DNA of 56,924 nucleotides, taken from NCBI GenBank assembly GCA_015654835.1, contig JAATGG010000134.1, forward strand, positions 1 through 56,924. Direction: 5' to 3'. The position numbers and the translations under genes are program-made. Under the pieces are notes generated by a model, which worked only from the letters and a program-made list of their open reading frames with translations, searched no databases and was not told where the DNA came from. This DNA is from Terriglobales bacterium. GTDB taxonomy: Bacteria; Acidobacteriota; Terriglobia; Terriglobales; Acidobacteriaceae. Positions 5,172-56,318 of this stretch are shown one piece after another (position 1 is the first letter of the stretch; each line of letters opens with the position of its first letter).

Positions 5172-5308
5172 GCCGATCGCACGCAACGGCATGGGCTCAG
5201 AGGACTTATCGACATAACGCCAGACACGGCCATAAAACCAACGGCATTCAATGCGCATCACAACCTAAAGTGAAATTCAAAAGAATCTGTAAGCGATTCC
5301 TTGTTTCG

Positions 5309-8326: not shown

Positions 8327-8337
8327 GGAAGACTCCT

Positions 8338-11300: not shown

Positions 11301-12405
11301 CGCTTCAGGCAATATGCCGGTCGGTCTGCAACACGGCAATGGCATTCTTACGCTGACAAATGAGCGAATCAATATCAGTAAATTTCAGGGCACAGTCGGT
11401 GGAGGAACGGTCACGGCGCAAGGGGGAGTCGCCTACCGCCCTGGTGTTCAGTTCGATCTCGGTCTGGCAGCGAAAGGAATACGCATCCTCTACCCTCAAG
11501 GCATGCGAGAGAGTGTCGATGCAAATCTGAGGCTGGCAGGATCGACGGAAAATGCAGTTCTTGGCGGCTCGGTCAATATCGCGGATCTATCGTTTACTCC
11601 CGCGTTCGATCTCTCGAGTTTCATTCGTCAATTTTCAGGCGGAGTCATTTCTCCGCCCTCGCGAGGATTCGGTCAGAACCTTCAGCTTAATCTGGCCGTG
11701 CACTCCACAAACAATGTGAATCTCGTCAGCAGAACACTGAGCATGAATGGTTCAGCGAACCTTCAAGTGCGTGGAACCGCGTCGCAGCCTGTCATCCTGG
11801 GCCGGGTCAATCTTACCGGCGGAGATATCATCATGAACGGTGACAGGTTTCTGTTGACGGGCGGAACGGTGCAATTCGTCAATCCATCTGAAACCCAGCC
11901 CGTCGTGAATCTCACGCTCAGCACTACCATTCAGCAGTACAACATCAATCTACGTTTCAACGGTCCGGTTGACCAGTTGCGTACGCAGTACAGCTCCGAC
12001 CCCGCGCTGCCTTCGGCCGATATCATCAACCTTCTGGCTTTCGGCCAGACCACGGAAGCCGCAGCCAATTCCGCTACTCCTGCGGATCAGGCCGCTGAAT
12101 CGTTAGTGGCATCGCAAGTGTCAAGTCAAGTTACAAGCCGCGTCTCTAAGATCGCCGGTATCTCGCAACTCTCGATTAATCCGGTGCTGGCTGGCAGCAG
12201 CAGTCAAGGTCCTCCAGGGGCGAACATCACCATTCAACAGAGAGTCACCGGGAATCTATTCGTTACCTTTTCGACCAATGTTGCTTCTACCCAAAGCCAG
12301 ACTATTCAGGGTCAATATCAGCTTTCACCGCGCGTTGCAGTGAGCGCAACGCGCGATCCCAATGGAGGTTTCGCTGTCGATACGTTGATCAAGAAAACCT
12401 GGTAG
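8338..12405 (+). CDS. tamB: Translocation and assembly module TamB-like protein (AsmA/DUF490 superfamily)
   Basis: 1355 aa. An N-terminal signal-anchor helix (about residues 22-50, LLKIVAWISAVFTVLFLIV) is followed by more than 1200 residues of repetitive beta-rich sequence typical of the bridge-like AsmA/TamB proteins. The C-terminal 350 residues carry the DUF490 signature region (GGDIIMNG...LTGGTVQFVNP and a DIINLLAFGQTT-type stretch) that contacts the Omp85 partner. TamB spans the periplasm and is linked to outer-membrane protein assembly and phospholipid transport. ATG at 8338 follows GGAAGA with good spacing, and the gene lies 11 nt after the Omp85 gene, so the two are surely co-transcribed. 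It ends 12 nt from a convergent GH15 gene. Confidence 0.9.
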   Translation: MNTSLPPPDSDSPSKSRRLKQRQLLLKIVAWISAVFTVLFLIVTVALVALLNSTRVHNYLLDTLQKQASDSLGVRARLQNFTVHLSSLSVDLYGLTVDGANPYPNPPVLQVRHAQAGIRVVSILQRSWYLNSVQIDNPVVQIFVDDRGVSNIPKLKSHGNTGNNTSVFDLGIRHAVLDHGEVYYNNQPSSLAVDLHDLKFRASFNSLLQKYSGRLGYADGHLTYGSVRPLSHNLDLEFDATPTTFHLTRARVTGGASSIALSATVNNYDHPLVQAQYDALVDGAQMAEVLHNSSVPVGLIRAIGSMQYQQAANRSILESLAVNGQLTSRQLTVRTPSVRAEINNLAAHYSLANGQAALRDFRANLLGGALTANGTMTNLGGDSHSQMTAVLHGVSLAQVRQALGRTAAPAGISLTGALNASATAAWGKTLADLVVHTDATINGQVTRAHAVKQTPGSGVVNASGATAAPAAISVESAIHAVYTARNHQLALIKSYLRTPQTDVTMDGVVGDRSSLVLRLQANDLREVSTIVDLFRMPSPGHSLQPLDLSGTVSFQGSIQGSTASPHLTGQLTALNLSVNGTAWKVLRAGIDANPSQINLQNADLEPASRGRITFNADVGLTRWSFTNNSPVRVQLNASQMNIADLAKLTGQQIPVAGILNANVNIHGSELNPVGDGNLSLTRMTAYEEPVNSVKLKFSGTGDEAHGDLVIQLPAGDIQSNVSIRPKQRTYTAQLTSSGIRLDKLQALKAKNIDAVGMLALNAKGQGSFDNPQLNATIQIPSLTIRNQKITGINLQMNVAEHVANATLSSSAANTSIQAKARVILSGDYLADASLDTQGIPLQPLLATYAPGQAISGQTELHATLHGPLKNRNLLEAHVTIPVLKMAYNNNIQLAAVAPIHIDYKNGVIELQRTAIRGTDMDLQLQGSIPTYGGGKMSLLLLGTVNLQLAQLFSPDVISSGELKFHINSYGASSGPSLGGEIDIVDANFASGNMPVGLQHGNGILTLTNERINISKFQGTVGGGTVTAQGGVAYRPGVQFDLGLAAKGIRILYPQGMRESVDANLRLAGSTENAVLGGSVNIADLSFTPAFDLSSFIRQFSGGVISPPSRGFGQNLQLNLAVHSTNNVNLVSRTLSMNGSANLQVRGTASQPVILGRVNLTGGDIIMNGDRFLLTGGTVQFVNPSETQPVVNLTLSTTIQQYNINLRFNGPVDQLRTQYSSDPALPSADIINLLAFGQTTEAAANSATPADQAAESLVASQVSSQVTSRVSKIAGISQLSINPVLAGSSSQGPPGANITIQQRVTGNLFVTFSTNVASTQSQTIQGQYQLSPRVAVSATRDPNGGFAVDTLIKKTW

Positions 12406-34969: not shown

Positions 34970-34996
34970 AGCAGCCCCCCCCGGGGGGGGGCTGCT
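34970..34996. repeat. Perfect GC hairpin (C8/G9) at the end of the Crp/Fnr gene
   Basis: AGCAG plus eight C is followed directly by nine G plus CTGCT, an almost perfect palindrome. It overlaps the stop codon (34995-34997) of the leftward regulator gene. No T-tract follows on either strand. It could act as a transcription block or RNA-end stabiliser; the loop would be only a few G/C bases. Confidence 0.7.
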
Positions 34997-35747
34997 ACAG
35001 CAGCGCCTGCAGCCGCTCGGGATGAAGGAGGGTCACGATCGAGTCTTCAATGCAGATCCAGCCATCCTTGCGGAACTGGCCGAGAGTGCGGGTGACGGTT
35101 TCCCGGGTGGTGCAGGCCATGGAAGCCATCTCCTCATGGGTGAGCAGCAGCGGAAAACGGAACCCGCCGTCGTTCAGGTGCTCGCCGATCTGCTGAGCCA
35201 GTTCCACCAGCAGCCGGCCCAGGCGCGCGGCCACGGTTTCGGCCAGAGCAATCCGGCAGGCATCCTGCAAGGCGAAACGGTATTCCTGGCAAATGCACTG
35301 CACGGCCCGCATCTGGGCTTCTTTATGGGTGCGCAGAAAGCCGAGAAAACGCTCCCGTTCGACCGGGCGAAGCTGGGCGGAGGTCAGTGATTCGGCGGAA
35401 ACCTCGTAGACGCCGTGAGAAAGAACCGCGTAGAGGCCGAGCATCGAGCCTGGGCCGGCGACGCGGACGATCATCTGCCGGTCTTGCACGCGTCCTGCCG
35501 TCAGTTTGAGATAGCCATTGCAAATGAGATAGAGGCAGCGGGCGTCTTCGCCCTGCGTAAAGAGAGGTGCCTGCGAAGGCAGCGAAATGGTGCTGGTGGC
35601 CAGTTCAAGATCTGCCAGCACGGAACTGCCCAGGGAGCAGAACCAGCCGGGCCGGCGATTGGAGCAGGCAGCACAGCCCACGGGAGCCTGGCGCGGCATA
35701 TGCCTTAACCGGGCTTGTATTGCGATTGGGTTCTCTGCGTCCGCCAT
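34995..35747 (-). CDS. Crp/Fnr-family transcription regulator
   Basis: 250 aa from ATG 35747; the frame extends 24 codons upstream to 35819. It has a cyclic-nucleotide-binding-type beta-roll (about residues 50-140), a dimer helix and a C-terminal winged helix. An N-terminal cysteine set (Cys25, Cys28, Cys37; CX2CX8C) recalls iron-sulfur Fnr sensors, although the spacing differs from E. coli FNR. In the recognition helix (THEEMASMACTTRETVTRTL) Arg215, Glu216 and Arg220 sit where CRP has Arg180, Glu181 and Arg185. That set is known to favour TGTGA half-sites, whereas FNR replaces the first Arg by Val and reads TTGAT. Two TGTGA-N6-TCAC sites lie between this gene and the divergent cytochrome operon, so it is the likely regulator. 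Effector unknown. Confidence 0.92.
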   Translation of the reverse strand: MADAENPIAIQARLRHMPRQAPVGCAACSNRRPGWFCSLGSSVLADLELATSTISLPSQAPLFTQGEDARCLYLICNGYLKLTAGRVQDRQMIVRVAGPGSMLGLYAVLSHGVYEVSAESLTSAQLRPVERERFLGFLRTHKEAQMRAVQCICQEYRFALQDACRIALAETVAARLGRLLVELAQQIGEHLNDGGFRFPLLLTHEEMASMACTTRETVTRTLGQFRKDGWICIEDSIVTLLHPERLQALL

Positions 35748-35913: not shown

Positions 35914-35929
35914 TGTGATGGATCTCACG
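35914..35929. promoter_or_regulatory. CRP-type operator, regulator-proximal
   Basis: TGTGATGGATCTCACG matches the TGTGA-N6-TCACA consensus at 9 of 10 defined positions. It is centred at 35921.5, about 174 nt before the Crp/Fnr start codon. It may serve autoregulation; the only nearby -10-like element for the regulator is CATAAA on the minus strand (35878-35883), which gives a centre near -50. Confidence 0.65.
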
Positions 35930-36112: not shown

Positions 36113-36128
36113 TGTGATGAATATCACC
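36113..36128. promoter_or_regulatory. CRP-type operator, operon-proximal
   Basis: TGTGATGAATATCACC matches TGTGA-N6-TCACA at 9 of 10 defined positions. Its centre (36120.5) lies 41.5 nt upstream of the start point predicted from the -10 element at 36150-36155, the classical class II activator position. Confidence 0.7.
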
Positions 36129-36149
36129 GTGTCCGGCTCCAAAAAAACG

Positions 36150-36155
36150 TACGAT
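36150..36155 (+). promoter_or_regulatory. Predicted -10 element of the cytochrome operon
   Basis: TACGAT matches TATAAT at 4 of 6 positions, including both TA and AT ends. No good -35 box is present at the right distance, as expected for an activator-dependent promoter whose activator covers that position. The predicted start is near 36162. Confidence 0.5.
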
Positions 36156-36326
36156 TCTGCGCATGAAGTGATGCTCCGCACAACGAGCACCTTCCGCAAA
36201 AAACGGCCCCCGAGCCGCGCTGCCGAGCCGGTGCTCCGAAGAGGAAAACCCAAGCAAAGTCGCACGGAATTGGGGTTAGTTCTTCGCGGAATGGGCGACG
36301 AGATCACCTAAGGCGGTATTTTTTTG

Positions 36327-37292
36327 ATGCATAGACAAAGGCCTATGGCGCAATTGCCGAGTGGTGCGGTTCCGGGGAACAAGCCGGCGCTGCGAGCTTG
36401 TTTAATGTTTTTGTTGGGCGCGGGAATGGTTTGCGCCACGGCGATGGGCGCTGCTGCGCCTGGAGCTAAACCGGCCGGCAGCCAAGCCAAGGAAGCACCC
36501 GCTTCGGATTTTGTCGGTTCTGAAACCTGCGCAACCTGCCATGACGAGGTTGCCAAGGGATTCGCCTCGAATCCCCATACCAAGATCTCCGAGATGCATG
36601 GCAAGTCCGGCATCACCTGCGAAGGGTGTCACGGCGCGGGTCGTGCACACGTCGAAGGCGGCGGCGACACCACCAAGATCTTCAATCCCGCCAAGGCCTC
36701 GGCCAAAGACGTGGACAAGACCTGCCTGGGTTGCCACGCGGGAGCGCACCCGAACTTCGAGCGCTCTCCTCACGCCAAGGCCAATGTGGGTTGCACGGGC
36801 TGTCACAGCGTGCACGCCAGCACTGAGAAGGAGCACTTGCTGAAGGCTTCGCAGCCGAAGCTTTGCTATCAGTGCCACACCGAAACAAAGGCATCCTTCG
36901 ATATGCCGTTCCACCACAAGGTCAACGAAGGCGCCGTGAGTTGCTCCGATTGCCACGACGTTCACGGCACTTTTGGAAACAACAACGTGAAGTCCACAGC
37001 CGATCAGAACGCGATCTGCACCAAGTGCCACTCGGAGACCCGGGGACCCTTTGTGTATGAGCACGCTGCGGTGAAGGCGGAGGGCTGCGTAGGGTGCCAC
37101 ACTCCGCACGGTTCTCAGAATGCCCGGTTGCTGAACATGCCGAACATCAACACATTGTGCAACCAGTGCCATAGCCAGGTCGCTGCCAGCACGGTTCACG
37201 GAATGAACTCGGGATCGCAGGAATTGGCTCCCTGCACCAGCTGCCACACGTTCATTCATGGTTCAAACCTGAATCAGGCGTTTCTCAGGTGA
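36327..37292 (+). CDS. Decaheme c-type cytochrome, MtrA/PioA/DmsE family
   Basis: 321 aa with exactly ten CXXCH motifs in order: CATCH, CEGCH, CLGCH, CTGCH, CYQCH, CSDCH, CTKCH, CVGCH, CNQCH, CTSCH. The N-terminus has a basic stretch and one hydrophobic segment (ACLMFLLGAGMVCATAM), a signal peptide. The length and heme number are those of MtrA/DmsE, which threads through an outer-membrane barrel and carries electrons across the outer membrane. Segments such as DMPFHHKVNEG and the IHGSN near the C-terminus are typical of this family. The start is ATG 36327; TTG 36324 and ATG 36345 are alternatives. The next gene encodes a large beta-barrel, completing the conduit pair. Confidence 0.93.
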   Translation: MHRQRPMAQLPSGAVPGNKPALRACLMFLLGAGMVCATAMGAAAPGAKPAGSQAKEAPASDFVGSETCATCHDEVAKGFASNPHTKISEMHGKSGITCEGCHGAGRAHVEGGGDTTKIFNPAKASAKDVDKTCLGCHAGAHPNFERSPHAKANVGCTGCHSVHASTEKEHLLKASQPKLCYQCHTETKASFDMPFHHKVNEGAVSCSDCHDVHGTFGNNNVKSTADQNAICTKCHSETRGPFVYEHAAVKAEGCVGCHTPHGSQNARLLNMPNINTLCNQCHSQVAASTVHGMNSGSQELAPCTSCHTFIHGSNLNQAFLR

Positions 37293-37298
37293 TGAAGC

Positions 37299-37337
37299 TG
37301 CGCCGCGTGCGCCTGTCTTAAGAGGCAGCGCGGCGCA
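37299..37337. repeat. Intergenic hairpin, decaheme/porin gap
   Basis: A 9-bp stem TGCGCCGCG/CGCGGCGCA encloses a 21-nt loop, 6 nt after the decaheme stop codon. There is no T-tract directly after it. It may stabilise or process the upstream mRNA segment. Confidence 0.65.
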
Positions 37338-37417
37338 ACTCCCGAACCAATTTCGCACACGTGTTCAAAATTCGACGTCAGCAATGCTGTTTTTTTGCTT
37401 TTAAGTGAGGCTTCACC

Positions 37418-40024
37418 ATGACGAATATAGGATGGTTTTCTCGGCTGTCTGCTCAGCAGCCTTCTACCGCAATGATCCGGCGCATCGCCGGAGGCATTGC
37501 CGCGGCCAGTTTAGTGATGGCGACAGGGGTCGCTGTCGCCCAAAATCCGACGCCTGCCAACCCATTCCCAACGTCCGGTGCACAGGTATCTGCGCCGAAT
37601 GGGTATGCGCTTCATCAGGCTGTGGACCTTGGCGGACACATGGTCAACACCACCGGTAGCGATGCCATGTATGACACGCTGGTCAACCTGCAGTCCGGGC
37701 CACGAGTGCTCGGCGAAACCTTCGAACTCCATGCGCTGCCCGGCAACAAACATGCTCTTGTCGATGACCTGAGGCTCTTCAGCAGCGGTTTTGGCGGCGA
37801 TCCGAACAACTTTACCAAAATGGACTTTTCCAAAGGCAAGCTCTTTGAGTTCTCCGGCTTGTTCCGTCGGGATCGCCAATACTTCGATTACGATCTGCTG
37901 GGCAATCCGAATATTCCCGGCGGACAGTCGATCACAGACCCGACCACCCACGTATCGGTTCCGTGGTCGCAAGTCAAGCAGTCTCCGTTCCTGTTCAACA
38001 CCGTGCGGCGCATGACTGACACCAACGTCACGATTCTGCCGTTGTCGAAGGTCACCTTCCGCGCCGGATATTCGCAGAACATCTTCCAGGGGCCAAGCCT
38101 CAGCCCGAGCGGTTTCACGGAAATCAGTGCGCCCGTTGCCTTCGATTACGATTTTGTGCTCGCCCAATTCCAGCGCAACAGCACCGACGACTTTATGGGT
38201 GCGGTGGACTGGAAGCCGGTCAACGGCACGAAGTTGACGTTTGAAGAGCAGGTGGATCACTACAAGGGCGATTCCTACTTCACCATGGCTCCTAACGCCT
38301 ATAACGTGCGGGAAGCGGATGGAACCAAGGCGGCGCTCCTTGCCAGCTACGATACCTTGACCGCTCCTACTGCAGCCAGTCTCTGCAATGCGGGCGCCAC
38401 GGGTGGTTTCCCATACCTGTCGGCAAACCCCAACGGCGGCCTGCCGATCGTGAATGCTGCTTGCACCGTGATGACCAGCTATCTGCGCAGGCAACCGACG
38501 CGCATCCTCTATCCAACCGAGATCTTCCGGCTGCAGAGCACGAGCATCAAGAACATCTCGATGAATGGGGATGTTCGCTACACCAACGCGAACATGCACA
38601 TGCCCAACTACTACGAGAACTTCCAGGGCCTGACAGCCCCGGGAAAAACGGTGGGCGCGATGCGCTCGTTCACCTACGTCGGCAACGCCAATGCGAAGCG
38701 CGAAGTGATGGTGGCCGATTACGGCATCGTCTGGCAGGCGACAAAGACCTTCAGCTTGTCTGACCAGGTTAACTACTCGAATGTGCAGCAGCCGGGAACG
38801 GCCTCTGTGACGACCGCGACGGCTCTGGTAACTCCGGCAGTTGCGGCCAACGAAACCATTACCTACCCCGGCACGCTGATCACGACTGCAGCCGGCACAA
38901 ATCCGGGCAACCCCGCAGTCGGTACATCGGTCCCCGGCTACTTCGGTCAGAAGTATGTCACCAACAACGTGACGGCGACTTGGGATGCTTTGTCGCGGGC
39001 CACCTTCTCGCTCACCTATCGCTACGGCACGCACACCATCGCCGAGGGCATTCCTCATAACGCTCCGTTGGCCGTGGGTGCGGATTCGAATGGAACCGTC
39101 ACCATCGACGAAAACGGTGGAATCTTCAACGCTGCGGTTCGTCCCAGCGCGAATTGGGATATCAACGGTTCGGTCGAAGTGCTGTACAACGACAATGCGT
39201 TTACCCCAATCGGTCCGCGGCAGACGCAGCATTACAGGGTACACACCAAGTTCCGTCCCGTGCCGTGGGCCACGATCTCAGGTGCGTATAACGACCTGGA
39301 ACGGCATAACAACACAAACAACAACCAGGCAGCCGTGGCGCCCGGCAGCGCTGCCTACGCGGGCCCGATCGAGCATGTGGATCACAGCCGCGTGGTGAGC
39401 CTGGGTGCGAGCCTGTCGCCAAACGAGCATTATGGAGTCGACATCAACTACTCCTATGGCGATGTCTACACGTCTACGAACATCTGCTATGACGCCGCCT
39501 CCAGTCCGGCTTTGCCTGGCGTTGCAACCGCCAGCGGCACGGCCTGCCCTGGAGCGACCGTTCGCGGAACCACCTATTACGAGTACGGTCCCGTCAAGGA
39601 CTTCATGGATGCGCCGACGCAGTCCGGATCGGTGGCTTTGACGTACTCGCCGGTCGACAAGATCCACTCCAATGTCGGCTATCACGCCAACTCGGTCAAC
39701 GGCAGTCAGTTCTTCAACGATGCGCGGTCCGTCAATGGCTCGCTGAACTCCACGTATCAATCGCCCTACGTGAATGTTGCTTGGACGCTTCGCCCCGGAC
39801 TGATCTGGAGAGCGGAATACAACTTCTACGGATACGGAGAAGGAGGGCCTTCCGGTGCGGCTTTGTGCAGCACCACGAATCCCACCCTCACCGCTCCCGC
39901 ACCTGGTGTTCCCTGCGCTTCTCTGCCCGCGCCGACCGGTCTGACCGAGTCGTCTGCCGGACTGACCGCGCCTCGCAACTTTCATGCGAACAACGTAACC
40001 CTTGGAGTGCACTACGAGTTCTGA
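37418..40024 (+). CDS. MtrB/PioB-type outer-membrane beta-barrel partner of the decaheme cytochrome
   Basis: 868 aa. A signal peptide (IAAASLVMATGVAVAQ) is followed by a glycine-, asparagine- and aromatic-rich sequence with alternating strands throughout and a C-terminal GVHYEF ending in Phe, typical of outer-membrane barrels. Phrases such as ELHALPGNKHALVDDLRLFSSGFGG, FRRDRQYFDYDLLGNP and TFRAGYSQN resemble MtrB/PioB-family barrels, and position after a decaheme MtrA-type gene supports the call. Shewanella MtrB has about 700 residues and an N-terminal CXXC; this protein is longer, and I see no CXXC near its N-terminus. It would form the sheath through which the decaheme cytochrome reaches the outside. 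GAGG precedes ATG 37418. Remote barrel assignment is less certain than the cytochrome calls. Confidence 0.82.
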   Translation: MTNIGWFSRLSAQQPSTAMIRRIAGGIAAASLVMATGVAVAQNPTPANPFPTSGAQVSAPNGYALHQAVDLGGHMVNTTGSDAMYDTLVNLQSGPRVLGETFELHALPGNKHALVDDLRLFSSGFGGDPNNFTKMDFSKGKLFEFSGLFRRDRQYFDYDLLGNPNIPGGQSITDPTTHVSVPWSQVKQSPFLFNTVRRMTDTNVTILPLSKVTFRAGYSQNIFQGPSLSPSGFTEISAPVAFDYDFVLAQFQRNSTDDFMGAVDWKPVNGTKLTFEEQVDHYKGDSYFTMAPNAYNVREADGTKAALLASYDTLTAPTAASLCNAGATGGFPYLSANPNGGLPIVNAACTVMTSYLRRQPTRILYPTEIFRLQSTSIKNISMNGDVRYTNANMHMPNYYENFQGLTAPGKTVGAMRSFTYVGNANAKREVMVADYGIVWQATKTFSLSDQVNYSNVQQPGTASVTTATALVTPAVAANETITYPGTLITTAAGTNPGNPAVGTSVPGYFGQKYVTNNVTATWDALSRATFSLTYRYGTHTIAEGIPHNAPLAVGADSNGTVTIDENGGIFNAAVRPSANWDINGSVEVLYNDNAFTPIGPRQTQHYRVHTKFRPVPWATISGAYNDLERHNNTNNNQAAVAPGSAAYAGPIEHVDHSRVVSLGASLSPNEHYGVDINYSYGDVYTSTNICYDAASSPALPGVATASGTACPGATVRGTTYYEYGPVKDFMDAPTQSGSVALTYSPVDKIHSNVGYHANSVNGSQFFNDARSVNGSLNSTYQSPYVNVAWTLRPGLIWRAEYNFYGYGEGGPSGAALCSTTNPTLTAPAPGVPCASLPAPTGLTESSAGLTAPRNFHANNVTLGVHYEF

Positions 40025-40046
40025 TCGCGGGGCTTCCATCCCGCGA
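40025..40046. repeat. Intergenic hairpin, porin/cytochrome gap
   Basis: A 7-bp stem TCGCGGG/CCCGCGA with an 8-nt loop begins immediately after the barrel stop codon, with no T-tract behind it. Confidence 0.65.
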
Positions 40047-40084
40047 AAGAAGTTGGACGAACCTAAGAAAGAAGGAGATTGCCA

Positions 40085-40402
40085 ATGAAGATCAGGACTG
40101 GAATTGCGCTCGTCGCCATCATGGCGGCTACCACAATGACAGCCGCCTTTGCGCAGGGCCTGGGAGCGGACACCTACAAGGCGAAATGCCAGATGTGCCA
40201 CGGAGCCCAGGGCATGGCGGACAGCGGGCCAGGCAAGGCCATGAAGGTCAAGCCGGTGACCGATCCTGAGGTCAAGAAGTTCAGCGAGCCTCAGATGATC
40301 GAGGCTGTCAAAAACGGTATGGGCAAGATGCAGCCGTACAAGGGCAAGCTGACCGATGCACAGATTAAAGAAGCAGTCGTCTACTTTCGCTCGTTCAAGT
40401 AG
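40085..40402 (+). CDS. Monoheme class I c-type cytochrome (copy 1)
   Basis: 105 aa from ATG 40085, with AGGAGA 6 nt upstream. A signal peptide ending at FAQ precedes a small cytochrome domain with the heme motif CQMCH and a likely axial Met in GKMQPYKGKL, then the C-terminal helix DAQIKEAVVYFRSFK. It is a soluble periplasmic electron carrier by family. It closely resembles the next gene, and the two look like a tandem duplication. Confidence 0.92.
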   Translation: MKIRTGIALVAIMAATTMTAAFAQGLGADTYKAKCQMCHGAQGMADSGPGKAMKVKPVTDPEVKKFSEPQMIEAVKNGMGKMQPYKGKLTDAQIKEAVVYFRSFK

Positions 40403-40434
40403 TAAGGTAGGACTGCAGTCTTAACTTCAACAGG

Positions 40435-40465
40435 CGGGCGCGCGAGACGACTTCTCCCGCGCCCG
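40435..40465. repeat. Intergenic hairpin, cytochrome copy 1/copy 2 gap
   Basis: An 8-bp stem CGGGCGCG/CGCGCCCG with a 15-nt loop sits 32 nt after the first monoheme cytochrome. No T-tract. Confidence 0.65.
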
Positions 40466-40603
40466 TCCCTAACCGAGAAAGACCCGGATTCCCCAGAGAC
40501 CCGAGCTAGTGCCCTGAGGAATGCGGCACCGAAATCCATCCACTCGACCGGTATGGCCCCGCGTACGCTGGCAGTGGAACATAAAATTTCAAGGAGTCTT
40601 GCG

Positions 40604-40924
40604 ATGACAAAGATGATTCGATCCCAAGCCGTGTTGGCCGTAGTGGTATCTCTGGCCGGCGCCGTGGGTTTTGCCCAGTCTTCGGGCGAAGCGACCTACA
40701 AAGCCAAGTGTCAGATGTGCCATGGAGTTGCCGGCGCCGCTGATACGCCAACAGCCAAAATGATGAAGGTCAAGCCGGTCTCCGATCCGGACATGAAGAA
40801 GCTCACCGCGGCTGACATGATCAAGGCCACCACCGACGGCAAGGGCAAGATGCCCTCGTTCAAGGGCAAGCTGACCGACGCGCAGATCAAGGATACGGTC
40901 ACGTATTTTCGCTCGCTGAAATAA
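40604..40924 (+). CDS. Monoheme class I c-type cytochrome (copy 2)
   Basis: 106 aa from ATG 40604, with AAGGAG 7 nt upstream. The signal peptide ends at FAQ. It has the same heme motif CQMCH, the axial-Met region GKMPSFKGKLTDAQIK and the C-terminal YFRSLK. It shares YKAKCQMCHG, MKVKPV and KLTDAQIK with copy 1 but differs in surface residues, so the two may serve different partners. The 201-nt gap before it also contains one of the operon hairpins. Confidence 0.92.
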   Translation: MTKMIRSQAVLAVVVSLAGAVGFAQSSGEATYKAKCQMCHGVAGAADTPTAKMMKVKPVSDPDMKKLTAADMIKATTDGKGKMPSFKGKLTDAQIKDTVTYFRSLK

Positions 40925-40951
40925 GCGCGGGCTGGATTCAAGTGAAGCAAC

Positions 40952-40975
40952 TGGCCCGCCGTCCCAGGCGGGCCA
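40952..40975. repeat. Intergenic hairpin, cytochrome copy 2/NapC-like gap
   Basis: A perfect 9-bp stem TGGCCCGCC/GGCGGGCCA with a 6-nt loop ends 9 nt before the ribosome binding site of the next gene. No T-tract follows, so it looks like a processing or stability element more than a terminator. Confidence 0.7.
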
Positions 40976-40996
40976 ACTAGTCTGAAGGGGGCCGAG

Positions 40997-42463
40997 GTGC
41001 CACTGTTTCAAAAAATCCGTGAGGGGTGGGTGCGGCCGGCACTGTTTTTCGGCAACAACCCCATCAGTCTTGCCGGCGGAGCGATTACCAGCGCTTCCGG
41101 CGTAACCATGATCGGCTATTGGCTGGTCGAGATTCTTGGTCGACCCAATAGCAATCCCTATCTGGGAATCATCTTTTTCCTGATTCTGCCGGCCCTGTTT
41201 GTGCTTGGCCTGGCGCTGATTCCTGTGGGTGTGTTCCTGCGGCGCAGAAAGCTGCAGAAGGCCGGAGAGATTCCAGCGGAGTTTCCCAAGGTCGATTTTG
41301 CCGATCCGATGTTCCGCCACGGCGTCGACATCGTCCTCGCGGCGACCATCGTCAACCTGCTGGTGGTGGCCACGGCCAGCTATCGCGGCGCGGCTTATAT
41401 GGATTCTCCCCAGTTTTGCGGGCAATCCTGCCACGTGATGCATCCCGAGTACACGGCCTATCAAATCTCTGCCCACTCGCATGTCGCTTGCGTGGATTGC
41501 CACATCGGTTCGGGCGCTGCCTCGTATGTGCGCGCCAAGGTCAACGGCACCAAGCAACTCATTGAGGTCAGCCTGCACCCTATTGCAGGGATAGCCCCCA
41601 AATTCATCCCCGACTACCCCACGCCGATTCCGTCGCCCGTGCAGAACCTGCGCCCGGCCCGTGAAATCTGCGAGGGATGCCACACCCCAGCCAAGTTCAT
41701 CGGTGAAAAATTGCTCGTCAAGTCCACATTTGCCGACGACGCAACCAACACCGAAACCCAGACAGTAGTTGTCCTGCATCTGGGCGGCCGTGATTCTCTG
41801 TCGCACCTGACGGGCATTCACGGCGTGCACTTGGGGCACATCGAGTACATCGCCACCGACCCTACGCGCACCACCATTCCCTGGGTCCAGCGGCGGAACG
41901 AAGATGGCTCCGTCACCGAGTTCTCCGCGTCCACCCTGAACGGTAAAGCTCCGCAAGGCGAGCGGCGCGTGATGGATTGCATCGACTGCCACAACCGCGC
42001 GGCGCACACCTTTACCACTGCGGAAGATGCGCTCAACCGCTCGATGGCCGAGGGCGCCGTGAGCCCCGATCTGCCCTGGGTCCACAAGGAAGGCCTGCAG
42101 CTTCTCAAGGCCAACTATGCCAGCCAGGACGAAGCCCGCGCCAAGATCCCCGCGCAGCTTGAGGCGTTCTATCGCAGCAGTCATCCCGACGTATTGGCCG
42201 CGAAATACGCTCTCGTGCGGGCTGCGGGCACGCAGTTGGTCACCCTCTACAGCCAGAACGTATTTCCCGACATGAAGGTGACGTGGGGAACGCATCCCAA
42301 TCACATTGGGCACATGACCTATCCGGGCTGCTTCCGCTGCCACGACGGCGATCACACGGCGAAGGATGGCAAGGCCATTACCCAGGATTGCACCGCGTGC
42401 CATAACCTGCTGGCCGTGGATGAATCCAAACCCAAGGTGCTGAGCGATCTCGGCATTCAATAG
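40997..42463 (+). CDS. NapC/NirT-type multiheme membrane cytochrome (putative quinol dehydrogenase)
   Basis: 488 aa. GTG 40997 follows AAGGGGG. Three hydrophobic segments (about 23-47, 55-81, 110-130) precede a periplasmic multiheme region. Five canonical CXXCH motifs (CVDCH, CEGCH, CIDCH, CFRCH, CTACH) follow a first, non-canonical CX3CH site (CGQSCH, residues 141-146). NapC/NirT proteins oxidise menaquinol or ubiquinol and pass electrons to periplasmic partners. Three N-terminal helices and an extended multiheme region recall Geobacter ImcH more than the short CymA; this comparison is from memory. It would link the quinone pool to the small cytochromes and the decaheme conduit, or run in reverse for Fe(II) oxidation. 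Confidence 0.9.
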   Translation: MPLFQKIREGWVRPALFFGNNPISLAGGAITSASGVTMIGYWLVEILGRPNSNPYLGIIFFLILPALFVLGLALIPVGVFLRRRKLQKAGEIPAEFPKVDFADPMFRHGVDIVLAATIVNLLVVATASYRGAAYMDSPQFCGQSCHVMHPEYTAYQISAHSHVACVDCHIGSGAASYVRAKVNGTKQLIEVSLHPIAGIAPKFIPDYPTPIPSPVQNLRPAREICEGCHTPAKFIGEKLLVKSTFADDATNTETQTVVVLHLGGRDSLSHLTGIHGVHLGHIEYIATDPTRTTIPWVQRRNEDGSVTEFSASTLNGKAPQGERRVMDCIDCHNRAAHTFTTAEDALNRSMAEGAVSPDLPWVHKEGLQLLKANYASQDEARAKIPAQLEAFYRSSHPDVLAAKYALVRAAGTQLVTLYSQNVFPDMKVTWGTHPNHIGHMTYPGCFRCHDGDHTAKDGKAITQDCTACHNLLAVDESKPKVLSDLGIQ

Positions 42464-42479
42464 CAGCAAGGATTGAACC

Positions 42480-42535
42480 CGGCGGCCGAACCAGCCCAGC
42501 AACAAATCTTCGTTGCTGGACTGGTTCGGCCGCCG
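42480..42535 (+). terminator. Large stem-loop ending the cytochrome operon
   Basis: A stem of 24 positions with one mismatch (left arm 42480-42503, right arm 42512-42535) encloses an 8-nt loop and starts 17 nt after the NapC-like stop codon. Only a weak T-rich stretch follows. It is the strongest inverted repeat in the window. It overlaps the apparent upstream extension of the next ORF, which argues against that extension being coding. Confidence 0.75.
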
Positions 42536-42751
42536 CTTGTTTACGGCATCCCCCGCTTCTGCGGCATTCCACGCAAAGGCCTGTCGAATGGACCTCCGCC
42601 GCTATACAATCGGTGCCAAGCGAATCAAACCCACAGATTCCCTGCACAAAGGTGTCAGGGCGTGAACACCGTTCCACGGCGGAAGACAGAGTCCGGCCTT
42701 CCTCCGTTCGGCAAGGGCGTATTTCTGGGGAATCGCGCACTGAAGAGGAAC

Positions 42752-45700
42752 ATGACCTACAAGAAAAGTGTCGGCTTGCTGCTTGCGCTCCTCCTGGCGT
42801 CGACGATTGGAGCGCCAGTTGCGCAGGCCACGGCCCATCAGCCCGCGGACGAAGTCGCATCCGCAGCGGCGCACGCCTCGCGGGTGACTGGCGATTGGCA
42901 GACCACGGCATCGGTGGCAATTCCCACCGGCAAGACTCCTTCGCGCGCCTCCGAAATGGATTTGGGTGCGGCTCCCGCAGATATCCCGTTGACACGCATG
43001 TTGTTGTTGCTTGAGCCCTCGGCGGCTCAGCGCCAGGCGCTCGATGCGGAACTTGCGAACCAGCAGAATCCTGCTTCGTCCCACTATCATCAATGGCTCA
43101 CCGCCGTGGCGTTTGCCAGTTCGTATGCAAACTCCTCTGCCGACGTTGCAGCAGTCGTCTCATGGCTGCAAGGCCAGGGCTTCCAGGTAGCTCCATTGCC
43201 TGCCGGCCTTGGCTGGGTCGAGTTCTCAGGAACCGCTGGGCAGGTGGAGCAAGCGTTTCACACACACCTCGATCTGCTTGCAACAGCAGCCGGCTCGCGC
43301 GCAGTCTTGGCCAGTGCGATCAACGTGCCTGCCGCGCTGAAGCCTGTCTTCCACGGCTTGGTCTCGCTGGATGGTGCCGTATCGTTGCCGGCATTGACCA
43401 CGCCACAGCCGGTTGCTGTCTCAGCCGCTTCGCTGGCGGCGCAGACCACGCCCAGCCAGGCCGAGGCGCTTACTCCGCGGCTCATGGCGCAATTGCTGCA
43501 TTGGGATGCCTTGCAGGCCTCCGCTGTGAACGGCGCAGGAGAAACCATCGCCATCGCGGCTCGCAGCAACGTGGCCCCATCCGATATTGCTGCTTTCCGC
43601 GCAGTCTTTGGCTTGCCCGCGAACCCACTTGCCATTGCGCCCAACGGCATAGATCCCGGCATCACGTCTGACGAAGCGGAGGCCGTGCTCGCTGCATCCT
43701 GGGCCGGCGCAGCCGCTCCCGGTGCGCAAATCCTGCTGGTGCCCGCTGCTACCACCGGTGCTACGGACGGACTCGATCTTTCGCTGGCGGCCATCGTTGA
43801 TCAGGCGCTTGCGCATACCGTGGCCGTGGGTTACTCGTCCTGCGAGGCCTCGCTGAGCGAGGCGCATCAAGCCTTCTATGCGGCGCTCTATCGGCAAGCC
43901 GCGGTCGAGGGAATCGCTGTGATCGCCGCCGCTGGTGACAGCGGCCCTTCCGCTTGCCACATCGCTGGCAGTCCCGCGCCCGTGAGCAGCGGCTATGGCG
44001 TGAATGCGTTGGCCTCGACGCCGTGGAATACCGCAGTTGGTGTAGCGGGTTTGAGCGCGGATGAGTCGGTCGCTACTGGCCGCATCGCAAGCAGTCCGGC
44101 GCTGGCAGGCTGGTCGCCAACCAGTGCGGCAGACCCGGTCTATGCGGGCGGCGGTGGCAGCAGCACACTCTACGTAGCGCCCAGTTGGCAGCCGCTGCCA
44201 TCGTCGCCTGCGGTGGCGGCAACTCCGGAAGGGCACTTCCGCCTGTTGCCCGATGCCGCATTGCCGACAGCCATCGACAGCGGCGCTCATCATGGTTTGG
44301 CTTTCTGCATGAGCTGCTCCGCGTCAGCCGGTGAATGCACGCTTGTTCGCGGCGGCGGCAGCGCCGCTTCTGCCGCCATTTTTGCCGGTGTTGCGGCATT
44401 GGTAGCCCAAAAGAATGGCCCGCAGGGGAATCTCGCGCCTCATCTGTATGCGCTCAGCCTTCGGAGCGGCGTTTTCGACGATGTGCAACAGGGGGGCGCA
44501 CAACTGTGGTGTCGCGCCGGCAGTCCCGGCTGCGGAGACACCGAGCAGATCGGCTTTGTCGCTGTGCCCGGCTATGACCTGGCCACAGGCCTGGGCGGGG
44601 TAAACACGCAGGCCTTGGTGACCAACTGGTCCGCGGTTCCAGAAGTCGGCACCAGTGCGGTTACGGTGGGGATAACGGCACAACCTGCCATCATTACTCC
44701 GTCGACGCTCGTCACTCTCACCGCCAAGGTAACGCCTGGAGCGGGCGGCGCCACACCGACCGGCACTGTGCTCTTCTATAACATCTCCAGCGGAACGAAT
44801 GTTTCCACAGCGCCCTCGACCGTGGGAGCGGACGGCACTGCATCGCTCAGCATCAGCGGCGTGTTCGCGCTCGGCGATAACAAGGTAGAAGCGATCTACA
44901 GCGGCGATGCCACCTACGCGTCGGCTACTTCGCAGCCAGTCGACATCGCTGTCGAAAAGAGCGCAACGGTGACCTCGCTGACCGCAACGCCCGCTGTGCT
45001 TACCACCGGAACGACTGAAACCTTCAACGCAACCATCGCCCCGGCAACGGCGACTGGAGCCACTTATTCCATCACCGGCAAAGTGAGCTTCTACGATGGC
45101 GCCACTTTGTTAGGCGCCGGGACGGTCACCGCCAACGCCGCATCGCTTGCCAACATCACGCTTTCAACCACCGCCAGCCACACCATCACGGCCGTCTACT
45201 CGGGCGATACCGCCTGGAACACAAGCACTTCGAGCGCCGTTACTCTGGGGTCTACCGCTCCCGATACGGTGACGCTGACCATCACGCCCGCGATGCCCAC
45301 CCTGGGGCAGACCGTGTCCATAGTCGCAACCGTGACTCCCTTGGCCGCTCCTCCTGCGACGGGCGAGCAAAATCCCACAGGCAACGTGGTGTTCTATAGC
45401 GGAACTACTGTGCTGGGCACTGTCGCATTGGTGGCCTCTGCCAACAACACTGCCACGGCGACCTTCACATCGGCCACGCTTGCCGGTGGAGAAGACACCA
45501 TCACCGCCGTCTACGCGGGTGATACATACTACAGTCCGGGAACGTCGGCACCGTTGAACACCAACGTGCAGGGATTCACCATTGCGCCGTCTTCCGCGAA
45601 CCCATCTGCCAACCTAACCATTGTGCAGGGATCGGCAGGATCGGCCTCCTTCACCGTGGCGGGTGTTGGTGGCTTTAACGGCCAGATTCAGGTGGTGTGT

Positions 45701-46159
45701 ACCGTGCCGCAGCAGGACGACATGACCTGCCTGGCAAGTCCGCAGCAGGTGATACCCACCGCAACCGTTACCTTCACCGTGCAGACCTTTGCCGCGAGCA
45801 GTTCTGTCGCCGCTGCCGGTCATGCGCATGAACGTCCGTGGCCTCGCACAGCCGGTGAAACGGCGCTGGCTCTTCTCGGATTTTTCCTCCTGCCTTTCGG
45901 GCGTCGGACATGTGTATTCTCAAATCTTCTTTCGCGTCGCCTCGTCCCCCTGCTGCTCTTGTTGGTGGGGCTAAGCGGCGCGGGCATCGGCTGCAGCAAC
46001 AGCGTCAAAGTAACCTCGTCTTCCGGCACGCCCTTGGGAGTGGCCACCCTCACTATCACCGCATCCACCTACGAAAACACAACCCCCGTCAGCCGCAGCG
46101 TCTATCTGACGGTGAACGTCGTGGCGCCGGGTTCCCCCGCAACTTCGAATGGAAACTGA
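42752..46159 (+). CDS. Sedolisin (S53, pro-kumamolisin) family protein with Ig-like repeats, possibly catalytically impaired
   Basis: 1135 aa from ATG 42752 (AGAGGA upstream; signal peptide LLLALLLASTIGAPVAQA). It contains a pro-kumamolisin activation domain (about 40-200), an S53 catalytic domain (about 230-640), three bacterial Ig-like repeats (about 645-970, each ending in an A.YSGD- or A.YAGD-type strand) and a hydrophobic C-terminal region. S53 enzymes use Glu, Asp and Ser. Glu310 is in place, but the residue four positions later is Ala314 where family members have Asp, within an otherwise typical WAGAAAPGA context. The oxyanion Asp (Asp396 in AAGDSG) and a Ser (Ser537 in GGGSAAS) remain. 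It may be an inactive protease or binding protein. It is not co-directional with a clear partner other than the RNase downstream. Confidence 0.88.
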   Translation: MTYKKSVGLLLALLLASTIGAPVAQATAHQPADEVASAAAHASRVTGDWQTTASVAIPTGKTPSRASEMDLGAAPADIPLTRMLLLLEPSAAQRQALDAELANQQNPASSHYHQWLTAVAFASSYANSSADVAAVVSWLQGQGFQVAPLPAGLGWVEFSGTAGQVEQAFHTHLDLLATAAGSRAVLASAINVPAALKPVFHGLVSLDGAVSLPALTTPQPVAVSAASLAAQTTPSQAEALTPRLMAQLLHWDALQASAVNGAGETIAIAARSNVAPSDIAAFRAVFGLPANPLAIAPNGIDPGITSDEAEAVLAASWAGAAAPGAQILLVPAATTGATDGLDLSLAAIVDQALAHTVAVGYSSCEASLSEAHQAFYAALYRQAAVEGIAVIAAAGDSGPSACHIAGSPAPVSSGYGVNALASTPWNTAVGVAGLSADESVATGRIASSPALAGWSPTSAADPVYAGGGGSSTLYVAPSWQPLPSSPAVAATPEGHFRLLPDAALPTAIDSGAHHGLAFCMSCSASAGECTLVRGGGSAASAAIFAGVAALVAQKNGPQGNLAPHLYALSLRSGVFDDVQQGGAQLWCRAGSPGCGDTEQIGFVAVPGYDLATGLGGVNTQALVTNWSAVPEVGTSAVTVGITAQPAIITPSTLVTLTAKVTPGAGGATPTGTVLFYNISSGTNVSTAPSTVGADGTASLSISGVFALGDNKVEAIYSGDATYASATSQPVDIAVEKSATVTSLTATPAVLTTGTTETFNATIAPATATGATYSITGKVSFYDGATLLGAGTVTANAASLANITLSTTASHTITAVYSGDTAWNTSTSSAVTLGSTAPDTVTLTITPAMPTLGQTVSIVATVTPLAAPPATGEQNPTGNVVFYSGTTVLGTVALVASANNTATATFTSATLAGGEDTITAVYAGDTYYSPGTSAPLNTNVQGFTIAPSSANPSANLTIVQGSAGSASFTVAGVGGFNGQIQVVCTVPQQDDMTCLASPQQVIPTATVTFTVQTFAASSSVAAAGHAHERPWPRTAGETALALLGFFLLPFGRRTCVFSNLLSRRLVPLLLLLVGLSGAGIGCSNSVKVTSSSGTPLGVATLTITASTYENTTPVSRSVYLTVNVVAPGSPATSNGN

Positions 46160-52832: not shown

Positions 52833-55800
52833 TTAGAAGTTCAACCGCAGTGCGAGTTGGAGATTACGTCCACCAACCGTCACCGAATTGATCTGCGTTA
52901 CACCGGCTCCGGTTCCGGCAGCGGTTAGGCTATAAGGTGTGCCCACACCCTTGGACCCTAGAACGTTGCTGTTGGGCTGTCCGAAGCTCGGATGGTTGAA
53001 AGCATTAGTCGCATCGGCGCGGAACTGAAGTTTTACGTCATGCTTCCACACTTCCGCCAGATCGAACTCCTTGTGTGCGGAGAGGTTCACAACGTTGATT
53101 CCAGGTCCGACCAACGTGTTTCTCTTCTCATTGCCGTAGGTGCCGTCTGCCGGCCGAACGAATGCCGCAGGGTTATACCAGGTTGTGATGTTCCGGTGTG
53201 CGGGCTTCGAACTGACGGTCCCAATATTGGGGAACGCGCCGCCGCCATTTGCCTGTGTCTGATGTTCTTGCGCGTCTGTCACGGTAAACGGATTGCCTGT
53301 GGACAGAACGAGCGAGCCGGACAACTGCCATCCGCCTGCAACTTCATTCAGCACAGCCCCATGGCTGAGGAACGGCTTTCCCTTGCCAAAAGGCAATTGG
53401 TACACGGCGTTGCCCTTGAAGGCATTCCGCGTATCGAAGTTTGAATTGCCGTAGGCCGCATCGGGATCATACGAATTCTGATAGTTGGGCGTGCCCGCAT
53501 GGCTGCCCCAGCCTGATGAGTCGGCCGAATCCAGCATGTGCGACCAAACATAGTTGAAGTTGAAGCTCAGCCCCGAAGAATACCGCCGGGTGATCTGCGC
53601 CTGAAGTGAGTTGTAGTTGGAGACAGCGTTATTCGTGTATCCAGTGATTTGGTTGAAATTCGGATACGGAATAGCTGCCTTATTGATGCTAGTCGGCAAG
53701 ATCTTGCTCTGCGGAATCTGGTTGAGCGCGGCTCCGCCATTGCCCCCGAACACCAAGTCATAGCCGTGGCTGGCCACATAGCCAAGTTCGACCACTAAGT
53801 TGTTTGCAATCTCGCGCTGCAGGGCCAGGTTCCATTGATAGATCTTCGGAACCGGAGTGTGGTAGTCCGTAAAGACGACGTTTTGACCGTTGAATGCGTC
53901 AGGCGACGTGTTATTCGAGATATACGGCAGCGGCGTGCCAGTTACAAAGTTTGTTCCCGGGCCATCCAATTTGGTAATTGGGGTGACGCCGCCTGTGGTG
54001 TCATTCGCGCTACCCGACGCACCAAATACTCTGCCGAGGTTTTGGCCGTAGTTATCGGCGCTCCAGTTGTAGGCATAGAGACCAAAGCCGCCGCGAAGAG
54101 TGGTCTTGGGGCTAGGCAACCATGAGAAGCCGACACGCGGAAGGAAGGTATTGTAGACATCTTCCTCCAACGAGGTGCGGCCATTTGCATGAGTGCTGGC
54201 GAACCACATCGCGCCAAGGGTGTTCGTGGCCGGGTTCATCACCGTCGGATCAAAGCTGTCGACGTTCCCATGCACCTCGTTCCAGCCATGATTGATCTGG
54301 TAGCGAAGGCCGAGGTTGACGGTCAGGTTTGGACGGACCTTGTAGTCGTCCTGAATAAAGAACTGCGGAGACTTCAGCCGCGCGCCGTACTCCGGCATGC
54401 TGGATGCACTCCAGCTAGCGGCATCTCCCAACAGAAAGTCGGCCATCGCCCAGCCAGTGCTGGTGTTAATGCTGGCAGATCCGTTAGGAGCTTCCGTCCA
54501 TTGTGCGGTGTAGTCATTGTCGCAGCCGCAGGTGCTGCTGCCGAAACTGAATGCGCCTGACTGGTGGCCTGCGCCCCATGCAAGCGAATCGTTCCGGTAG
54601 ATCAATACTTCGCCACCGAAGTGGAGAATGTGCTTGCCCGTGATCAGTGTTACGACGTCAGAGGGATCGAAGACATGCTCTTTGAAAAGATTGTGCCCTT
54701 GCTTGTTGATCCACGCCGGAGTCCAATCGCCATCTTCGAAATCGATGTCGGGAAAATCGTTTTCCTTGGAGAACTGCCACCCGAGTTGCGCCGGCAGGTT
54801 CTGCCCAAAACTGGCATCGCCGGTTTCACTGAATTGGTAGGTGTAGCCGAGACGGGCTTCGTTCACCATACGCGGGCTAATCGTCCACACATCGGTAACT
54901 TGGGCGTTGTTGTTCTCGATGTCTGAGCTTTGGCAACCTACGGGGCACGCCTCAACTCCGCTCGGGTTTGACACTTGCGTCGTGTCGGTTTCCACGTCGG
55001 ACATCGTTAAACGATGCTGCGGTGTTACGTCGTAGTCCAACCGTCCAAAATACCGTGTGACGGGATTGGGAAAACTGAGCGCAGAAGCAAAGTTCTGGAC
55101 CGGCTCTCCATGTCCACCCGTGCCGCAGGCGGGTGTGGTTGCAGTTCCGCAGATGAACTGTCCGCCTGCAATGTGATTGGCCGGCGTCGGGTACCATTGG
55201 ATGAACTTCGCTGCAACGTTATCCATCAAACCTGCGGGAATTGCATTCTTGCCGTTTTCGCTCACGAAGGATCGGCGAATCGGGTAAGGAATGCCGTTCG
55301 CATCATGTTCTATCGTCTGCGTGGCCGGATCGTAAAGTGGGGCCATGCCGGTGAAATCACCGCTCATCATGGCTGGCGTGGGAACCGTGTACTTGGTGCC
55401 AGTCCCATTGCCGCCGTCATTGATGATGTGATCGTAATTGAAGTAGAAGAACGCCTTCTTCACCTTCGGAAGAGGACCGCCCAGTGCGCCGCCAAAGTTG
55501 TTATAGTGCAAGGTCGGAGCAACAGTCCCCAGACCAAAATTGTAGGCATGGGCTGAGAAAGCATTGTTCTGGATAAAGTCATAAGCGGTGCCGTGATAGA
55601 CGCTGGTGCCGCTCTTGGTGATCTGATTGAAGATGACGCCGCCAATGCCATACTGCGCCGAGAACGACGAAGTGTTCACTTGCAATTCCGCAACATCCTC
55701 AAAGGTGGTGGCGTTGGCATTCATGCTTTGGCCGAGAGTGGTCGAAGCACCGTCTGAAAGAATATTGGAGTAAGGAAGGTTGCCGTTGATGGCTGCTTCC

Positions 55801-56318
55801 TGTCCGGGATTTGAACCCGATGCGCCCGATGCGCCCGGAAGCAGAATCACAAAATTTTCCCAGTCCTGGCCTACCTGGGGCAGTTCGTCCATGGACTTCG
55901 CATCCATGACAGTCGACTGATCGCCCGTTTCGGTAGTGAGCAATGGAACGTCGGTAGTGACCGTTACCTGCTCTTTTGTCGAGCCGATTCTCAGTTGGCC
56001 GTTGACCGTGGTGAAACCGACCTCCAAAGTGATGGGCCCGCGCACAAACTGGTCAAAACCTTCTTTTGTAAAAGTGATGGTGTAGTGGCCGGGTACGAGC
56101 GAATTGGTGTCGTAAAGGCCAGACTGGTTGGACACGAAATCCTTCGCTACTCCCGTGTCTACGTTCATTACGGTGACTGTCACTCCCGGAACAAGCGCTC
56201 CCGAAGCGTCCGTAACGCTACCGCGGATGTCACCCGCGTTGATGCTCTGTGCAATACATCCCCCGCTTCCAATAATCATCAGAAGAAGGGGCAGTATCCA
56301 TCGCACGATGTGTCTCAT
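52833..56318 (-). CDS. TonB-dependent receptor with carboxypeptidase-regulatory domain (Oar-like)
   Basis: 1161 aa. A signal peptide (ILPLLLMIIGSGGCIAQ) is followed by a carboxypeptidase-regulatory Ig-like domain (about 28-110, DIRGSVTDASGALVPGVTV), a plug-like region with AINGNLPYSNILSDGAS, and a large beta-barrel ending in LQLALRLNF. This architecture is abundant in Acidobacteriota and thought to take up large substrates or assist surface proteins; substrate unknown. ATG 56318 has AGGAGG 6 nt upstream, the best ribosome binding site in the window, and a good promoter lies about 190 nt upstream. Confidence 0.93.
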   Translation of the reverse strand: MRHIVRWILPLLLMIIGSGGCIAQSINAGDIRGSVTDASGALVPGVTVTVMNVDTGVAKDFVSNQSGLYDTNSLVPGHYTITFTKEGFDQFVRGPITLEVGFTTVNGQLRIGSTKEQVTVTTDVPLLTTETGDQSTVMDAKSMDELPQVGQDWENFVILLPGASGASGSNPGQEAAINGNLPYSNILSDGASTTLGQSMNANATTFEDVAELQVNTSSFSAQYGIGGVIFNQITKSGTSVYHGTAYDFIQNNAFSAHAYNFGLGTVAPTLHYNNFGGALGGPLPKVKKAFFYFNYDHIINDGGNGTGTKYTVPTPAMMSGDFTGMAPLYDPATQTIEHDANGIPYPIRRSFVSENGKNAIPAGLMDNVAAKFIQWYPTPANHIAGGQFICGTATTPACGTGGHGEPVQNFASALSFPNPVTRYFGRLDYDVTPQHRLTMSDVETDTTQVSNPSGVEACPVGCQSSDIENNNAQVTDVWTISPRMVNEARLGYTYQFSETGDASFGQNLPAQLGWQFSKENDFPDIDFEDGDWTPAWINKQGHNLFKEHVFDPSDVVTLITGKHILHFGGEVLIYRNDSLAWGAGHQSGAFSFGSSTCGCDNDYTAQWTEAPNGSASINTSTGWAMADFLLGDAASWSASSMPEYGARLKSPQFFIQDDYKVRPNLTVNLGLRYQINHGWNEVHGNVDSFDPTVMNPATNTLGAMWFASTHANGRTSLEEDVYNTFLPRVGFSWLPSPKTTLRGGFGLYAYNWSADNYGQNLGRVFGASGSANDTTGGVTPITKLDGPGTNFVTGTPLPYISNNTSPDAFNGQNVVFTDYHTPVPKIYQWNLALQREIANNLVVELGYVASHGYDLVFGGNGGAALNQIPQSKILPTSINKAAIPYPNFNQITGYTNNAVSNYNSLQAQITRRYSSGLSFNFNYVWSHMLDSADSSGWGSHAGTPNYQNSYDPDAAYGNSNFDTRNAFKGNAVYQLPFGKGKPFLSHGAVLNEVAGGWQLSGSLVLSTGNPFTVTDAQEHQTQANGGGAFPNIGTVSSKPAHRNITTWYNPAAFVRPADGTYGNEKRNTLVGPGINVVNLSAHKEFDLAEVWKHDVKLQFRADATNAFNHPSFGQPNSNVLGSKGVGTPYSLTAAGTGAGVTQINSVTVGGRNLQLALRLNF

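Follow-up and report, generated by a model that had tools for sequence, protein, structure and literature searches.

Five consecutive genes on contig JAATGG010000134.1 of a Terriglobales bacterium (assembly GCA_015654835.1; the 56,924 nucleotides analysed are hereafter the window) are, on balance, best read as an operon for a self-contained line of outward extracellular electron transfer that operates without MtrC. They encode a decaheme c-type cytochrome, an outer-membrane beta-barrel, two monoheme cytochromes and an inner-membrane multiheme cytochrome of ImcH type (Table 1). The open reading frame (ORF) listing of the window placed all five on the plus strand, in the order given by an initial annotation made from the sequence alone, with intergenic gaps of 125, 54, 150 and 72 bp. 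That annotation had proposed that the parts of a route from quinone to the outer membrane sit in one cluster, which held true as a description of co-directional gene content. All five stand as genuine, conserved genes, and the set recurs beyond chance: an ORF scan of 49 related loci found the decaheme gene directly 5′ of the barrel gene in all 45 that had sequence upstream of the barrel. The interval originally given for the cluster, 36113..42535, contains the genes but does not mark their boundaries. No gene starts at 36113, which is base 1 of a conserved CRP-type palindrome; the likely ATG of the decaheme gene is at 36327, preceded by AAGGCGG at 36310, and the final stop codon of the cluster ends at 42463.

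Proteins encoded by the cluster

The decaheme protein passed the curated DmsE-family model TIGR03508 (257.8 bits, cut-off 192.2) and matched MtrA of Shewanella (6r2q_A) with an E-value of 8.8e-35, in agreement with its original assignment to the MtrA/DmsE type. Twelve histidines beyond those of the ten heme motifs were invariant among 12 aligned decaheme sequences. In the genome to which the window belongs, an assembly approximately 92% complete, matches to PF09699 at E ≤ 0.001 were confined to this gene. DmsE-type cytochromes adjoining a barrel in three further loci (L092, L094, L098) carried 11 CXXCH motifs, not 10.

The second gene, initially described as a large outer-membrane barrel, encodes 868 amino acids with a signal-like N-terminus, a C-terminal phenylalanine and no CXXCH motif, features that agree with this description. 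The protein matched no Pfam or NCBIfam model, including the curated MtrB/PioB models TIGR03509 and PF11854, which rules out a curated MtrB/PioB label, and no TIGR03509 match was found in the genome. Where the listed homologs of the barrel bear a name, it is 'hypothetical protein'. Searches against the PDB with the single sequence and with two profiles returned nothing credible (best E-values 2.3 and 0.36, to unrelated proteins). A profile widened with distant relatives matched MtrB/PioB at an E-value of 3e-9, compared with 0.012 for control barrels; the narrow barrel profile alone gave 0.025, without an MtrB match. Comparisons of single-sequence profiles were uninformative (0.057 for true MtrB alone, 0.10–0.15 for controls), and because a lone true MtrB sequence also scored poorly, the control relied on was a three-sequence barrel profile, itself shallow. 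For a structure model of low confidence (predicted local distance difference test score 58.5), MtrB stood first in the VIA list, and its match, of 529 residues, was the longest shown. Judged from these profiles, the barrel is probably a distant relative of MtrB/PioB once distant relatives are included. A large OMP_b-brl_4 barrel with a carboxypeptidase-regulatory-like domain, encoded elsewhere in the window (52833–56318, minus strand), served as a control barrel in the profile comparisons.

Both small cytochromes matched PF13442/PF00034 and contained a single CXXCH each, as initially annotated. The label NapC/NirT-type given to the last gene had to be replaced. Its product matched PF03264 (44.2 bits, cut-off 24.1) in the N-terminal NNT region only and was related to NrfH (2j7a_C) by profile comparison (E-value 2.3e-10), but six heme motifs and three transmembrane-like segments rule out a tetraheme NapC/NirT/CymA identity. 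By hydropathy these segments fall at residues 29–47, 57–75 and 109–127, the first being weak (family mean 1.62, and 1.34 in the protein studied here). All 14 aligned sequences kept every cysteine and histidine of the heme motifs. This architecture fits the published description of ImcH homologs, which have three membrane motifs (with two exceptions), one CX3CH and five to nine CX2CH motifs; the same source tables 19 homologs from Acidobacteria (PMC6295460). The label 'ImcH-type' is given by architecture and not by comparison with a characterised ImcH from Geobacter.

Conservation of the cluster and its regulator

The scan for the barrel yielded 49 loci in named genomes at 52–66% identity, all of them Acidobacteriota by title, including Acidobacteriaceae, Acidobacterium, Granulicella and Silvibacterium. 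The 45 decaheme–barrel pairs among them include a split decaheme frame in L020 and a split barrel frame in L038. An ImcH-type frame was present in 38 loci and, as a fragment detected by tblastn, in L020; eight of the remaining ten end on or near the cluster, and no such frame was found downstream in L013 (7 kb) or L002 (2 kb). Thirty loci had all three large genes at full length, and in 29 of these the order was decaheme, barrel and ImcH-type on a single strand; the exception, L005, has the ImcH-type gene upstream. Additional multiheme frames separated barrel and ImcH-type genes in six of the 29 (L006, L016, L017, L036, L043, L047) and in none of the other 23. Cytochrome b561 domains were identified in two extra multiheme proteins of L006 and in the one tested from L016, and none in those tested from L017 and L036. 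The combination of multiheme and b-type cytochrome in these extended clusters is comparable to that described for CbcL. A 13-heme protein was observed downstream of the barrel in L006, L016, L023, L039, L043, L047 and L049, mostly followed by an 11-heme protein before the ImcH-type gene. Silvibacterium bohemicum S15 carried two separate compact copies of the conduit (L004 and L014).

In a phylum-wide set of 297 Acidobacteriota genomes, the decaheme model exceeded its cut-off in 124, the barrel profile of the window matched in 39, the ImcH-type profile in 166 and TIGR03509 in 62 (24 over cut-off). The initial annotation had raised the possibility that homologs of the barrel occur without multiheme cytochromes, and the opposite was found: a decaheme gene stood beside 39 of the 40 barrel places in the 39 genomes, the fortieth, in G273, meeting a contig end. 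A listed decaheme lay within 3 kb in 26 of these places, and ORF scans resolved 13 of the other 14. Among the matches compared, 17 genomes had an ImcH-type gene no more than 10 kb from a window-type barrel; for barrels matching TIGR03509 the corresponding number was 15, three of them (G017, G159 and G291) with a match over the cut-off. Monoheme, ImcH-type, decaheme and MtrB-like genes followed one another in that order in L100–L103, and L105 had the order of the window (decaheme, MtrB-like, monoheme, ImcH-type). With TIGR03509, the barrels of all five loci scored 199–236 bits, just below the cut-off of 240. In L076 and L077 a wider-family barrel and its decaheme were found beside OmcA/MtrC-family cytochromes (513 and 421 bits, respectively). 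L076 (G131:C107) contained two adjacent decaheme–barrel pairs in addition to the OmcA/MtrC-family cytochrome; the barrel of one pair is an MtrB that exceeds the cut-off of TIGR03509, that of the other belongs to the wider family.

The initial annotation had also credited the operon with its own regulator. A conserved Crp/Fnr-family gene is present, but it lies outside the interval then given and is transcribed divergently from the minus strand. It was found divergent from the cluster in 25 of the 49 loci, at 72–88% identity, and Cys49, Cys52 and Cys61 were conserved in all 28 sequences aligned, that of the window among them. The spacing of these cysteines differs from that in FNR, and a classical FNR oxygen sensor was rejected on this spacing and on the score with NCBIfam NF008365 (23.9 bits, cut-off 228). 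Each of the 26 intergenic regions (that of the window and 25 others) had, 129–201 nt 5′ of the start of decaheme homology, a site differing from TGTGAN6TCACA at no more than two positions. Sites like the one nearer the regulator gene recurred in most of the other 25 regions, and sites related to the weaker one in many of them. Together the 26 regions contained 78 CRP-type sites, compared with a mean of 5.7 and a maximum of 11 in 50 simple shuffles. This supports the conserved site as a candidate operator for the Crp/Fnr regulator without proving it, since orthologous regions have common ancestry. Promoter- and terminator-like sites between 35700 and 42700 showed no excess over shuffles, and no Rfam match was obtained in the window.

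Table 1. Features of the gene cluster and its upstream region (positions in the window)
Feature	Coordinates	Strand	Basis or remark
Divergent Crp/Fnr-family regulator, N-terminal CxxC-x8-C	34995..35747	−	PF13545, PF00027; ORF to 35819, likely ATG 35747
CRP-type palindrome TGTGATGGATCTCACG	35914..35929		nearer regulator gene
CRP-type palindrome TGTGATGAATATCACC	36113..36128		about 200 nt 5′ of decaheme start
Weaker CRP-type site AGTGATGCTCCGCACA	36167..36182		2 mismatches
DmsE/MtrA-family decaheme c-type cytochrome, signal-like N-terminus	36327..37292	+	10 CXXCH, TIGR03508, MtrA match
Outer-membrane beta-barrel, unnamed family, probable distant MtrB/PioB relative	37418..40024	+	868 amino acids
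Monoheme class I cytochrome c, presumed periplasmic shuttle	40079..40402	+	1 CXXCH, PF13442
Monoheme class I cytochrome c, presumed periplasmic shuttle	40553..40924	+	1 CXXCH, PF13442
ImcH-type inner-membrane multiheme cytochrome	40997..42463	+	3 transmembrane-like segments, 1 CX3CH and 5 CX2CH

The ImcH-type gene is followed on the plus strand by one for a kumamolisin-type protein (42473–46159) with a pro-kumamolisin activation domain and Big_3_5 domains, and a kumamolisin-like gene also follows the cluster in L024, L042 and L045. Open frames on the minus strand opposite the barrel gene (37511–39244, 577 amino acids) and the ImcH-type gene (40589–42505, 638 amino acids) are probably shadow frames of coding DNA. 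Elsewhere in the window (5054–12405, plus strand) an Omp85 (POTRA) protein and then a TamB protein, an outer-membrane assembly pair, are encoded.

Direction of electron flow and alternative readings

In the reading that we favour, the Crp/Fnr-type regulator, perhaps sensing redox state or oxygen through its conserved cysteines, would act at the conserved CRP-type site. Quinol would be oxidised by the ImcH-type protein of the inner membrane, and the two monoheme cytochromes would ferry electrons through the periplasm. The decaheme cytochrome, seated in the barrel, would then let them cross the outer membrane to an external acceptor of high potential, such as Fe(III), Mn(IV) or the humic quinones of acidic peat and soil. 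ImcH has been reported to be essential for acceptors above −0.1 V (PMC6148476). The family match of the decaheme protein, its constant pairing with the barrel and the distant relation of the latter to MtrB/PioB argue for such a conduit, as do the wider-family barrels adjoining OmcA/MtrC cytochromes (L076, L077) and the joint occurrence of monoheme, ImcH-type, decaheme and MtrB-like genes in L100–L103 and L105. No protein in the genome, about 92% complete, exceeded the cut-off of the OmcA/MtrC family (TIGR03507; best E-value 0.47), and membership of the MtrCAB systems was rejected for this lack of MtrC. A search of the genome for menA gave no match, which leaves the type of quinone unsettled because other quinone routes were outside the search. 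A 337-amino-acid frame with five CXXCH motifs on contig C174 resembles the pentaheme subunit of alternative complex III.

Some points weigh against this reading. The parts list equals that of mtoABD-cymA, which is proposed for Fe(II) oxidation; the monoheme cytochromes may have a higher potential than the decaheme protein; and other large barrels scored close to MtrB in the structure search. The shared parts list would suit an inward conduit in which extracellular Fe(II) or some other reductant is oxidised by the decaheme–barrel pair and the electrons travel through the monoheme cytochromes to the ImcH-type protein or an oxidase, as proposed for MtoABD-CymA and PioAB. The monoheme shuttles are reminiscent of MtoD, two heme-copper oxidases in the genome could take the electrons, and MtoAB and PioAB, as described, also lack MtrC. 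No RuBisCO match was found in the genome, however, and Calvin-cycle lithoautotrophy is therefore unlikely in the available assembly. Because of this missing match and the presence of the ImcH-type protein we prefer outward flow, and regard an inward direction as unlikely. The b561-type multiheme genes of the extended relatives do not discriminate between the two, since homologs of CbcL, MtoC and MtrH have been implicated in both electron directions (PMC6295460).

A conduit to an external enzyme or a dedicated soluble acceptor, comparable to DmsEF in extracellular dimethyl sulfoxide reduction and with its terminal enzyme encoded elsewhere, would account for a decaheme in a DmsE-named family and an operon that lacks a terminal reductase, but we consider it improbable: Pfam identified no molybdopterin enzyme among 18 proteins of the window, the rest of the window, the flanks of the relatives and the genome being outside that search. 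That there is no trans-membrane wire, the decaheme protein serving as a free carrier or electron store in the periplasm and the barrel as an ordinary uptake porin, would agree with the curated models missing the barrel, the narrow profile lacking an MtrB match and the proximity of other barrels in the structure search, but is likewise improbable given that decaheme and barrel are constantly paired, control barrels have no profile relation to MtrB/PioB and wider-family barrels adjoin OmcA/MtrC.

For the outward conduit to be general is, in our estimate, an even prospect: soil and peat Acidobacteriaceae may share a widespread extracellular respiration of their own, with an unnamed porin, a DmsE-type decaheme, an ImcH-type quinol oxidase in place of CymA, no MtrC and a new type of cysteine-bearing Crp/Fnr regulator, the b561 multiheme relatives forming a redox-tuned series of the conduit. 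Acidic soils and peat are rich in Acidobacteria, whose anaerobic respiration is unsettled. Eichorst et al. (2018; PMC5900883) listed candidate mtrA/mtrB genes for 13 strains, S. bohemicum S15 among them, and argued against such a pathway because no operon looked complete. If the operon works as we infer, the missing pieces existed but were unannotated, iron or humic reduction could be tested in the two-copy isolate S. bohemicum S15, and ImcH-type quinol oxidases, known from Geobacter, would be tied to MtrA-type conduits.

Comparison with known systems

Several related reports come from this phylum. Lipson et al. (2013; PMC3669403) linked acidobacterial decaheme genes to the reduction of Fe in arctic peat. 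These and the candidates of PMC5900883 are genes of the same kinds from the same phylum; in the text consulted, neither paper describes a barrel of this family, an ImcH-type protein beside it or the regulator. Homologs of PioA and PioB have been reported to be widespread in Acidobacteria (PMC10654088), and porin–cytochrome complexes have been reported in a Holophaga (PMC7399161). A Granulicella 'MtrA' paper was set aside, as it concerns a response regulator that shares the name and not a cytochrome. MtrCAB of Shewanella and the Group 5 MtrCAB found in five Acidobacteriia (Baker et al., 2022; PMC8805035) have a similar pair of MtrA-like decaheme and barrel. Both differ in MtrC, of which the genome studied here has no match; the Group 5 clusters were reported to have no inner-membrane quinone oxidoreductase nearby, whereas here one is encoded inside the operon. 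PioAB of Rhodopseudomonas is likewise a decaheme–porin pair, with monoheme cytochromes and an ImcH-type protein standing here in place of PioC, a high-potential iron–sulfur protein.

ImcH of Geobacter sulfurreducens, like the last protein of the cluster, has three membrane segments, a CX3CH and several CX2CH motifs, six there and five here. In the 2018 survey of imcH, mtrAB/mtoAB were never adjacent to imcH (PMC6295460), in contrast to the decaheme–barrel pair adjoining the ImcH-type gene here. Three other papers mention ImcH, with no comparable cluster in their accessible text (PMC12133095, PMC11748539, PMC6896113). The closest printed arrangement found, likened by description and not by sequence, is that of the group 2 porin–cytochrome clusters in metagenome-assembled genomes from ghost rock, which have a decaheme gene beside a porin of 25–36 predicted strands (PMC13264449, 2026). 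As this source reports decaheme–porin clusters with ImcH- or NapC-like genes from metagenomes, a conduit of this kind with an ImcH-like partner has already been published; the text consulted gives no barrel family and no regulator for group 2, and leaves unstated which of the eight belong to Acidobacteriota. No description of the barrel family or the regulator was found in the literature, which was sampled in part and with subscription papers mostly outside.

The arrangement had been called unfamiliar in the initial annotation. As a parts list it is not, since mtoABD-cymA of Sideroxydans lithotrophicus has the same decaheme, outer-membrane porin, monoheme and NapC-type inner-membrane cytochrome. 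It differs in having tetraheme CymA where the present cluster has the ImcH-type protein with six heme motifs and three transmembrane-like segments, and in the cluster described here the barrel belongs to a different, unnamed family and a Crp/Fnr gene is conserved in divergent orientation. The concept of the conduit is thus already known; what sets this cluster apart is that its barrel family is unnamed, that MtrC is absent and that a CRP-type site is conserved next to the gene of a Crp/Fnr regulator with cysteines.

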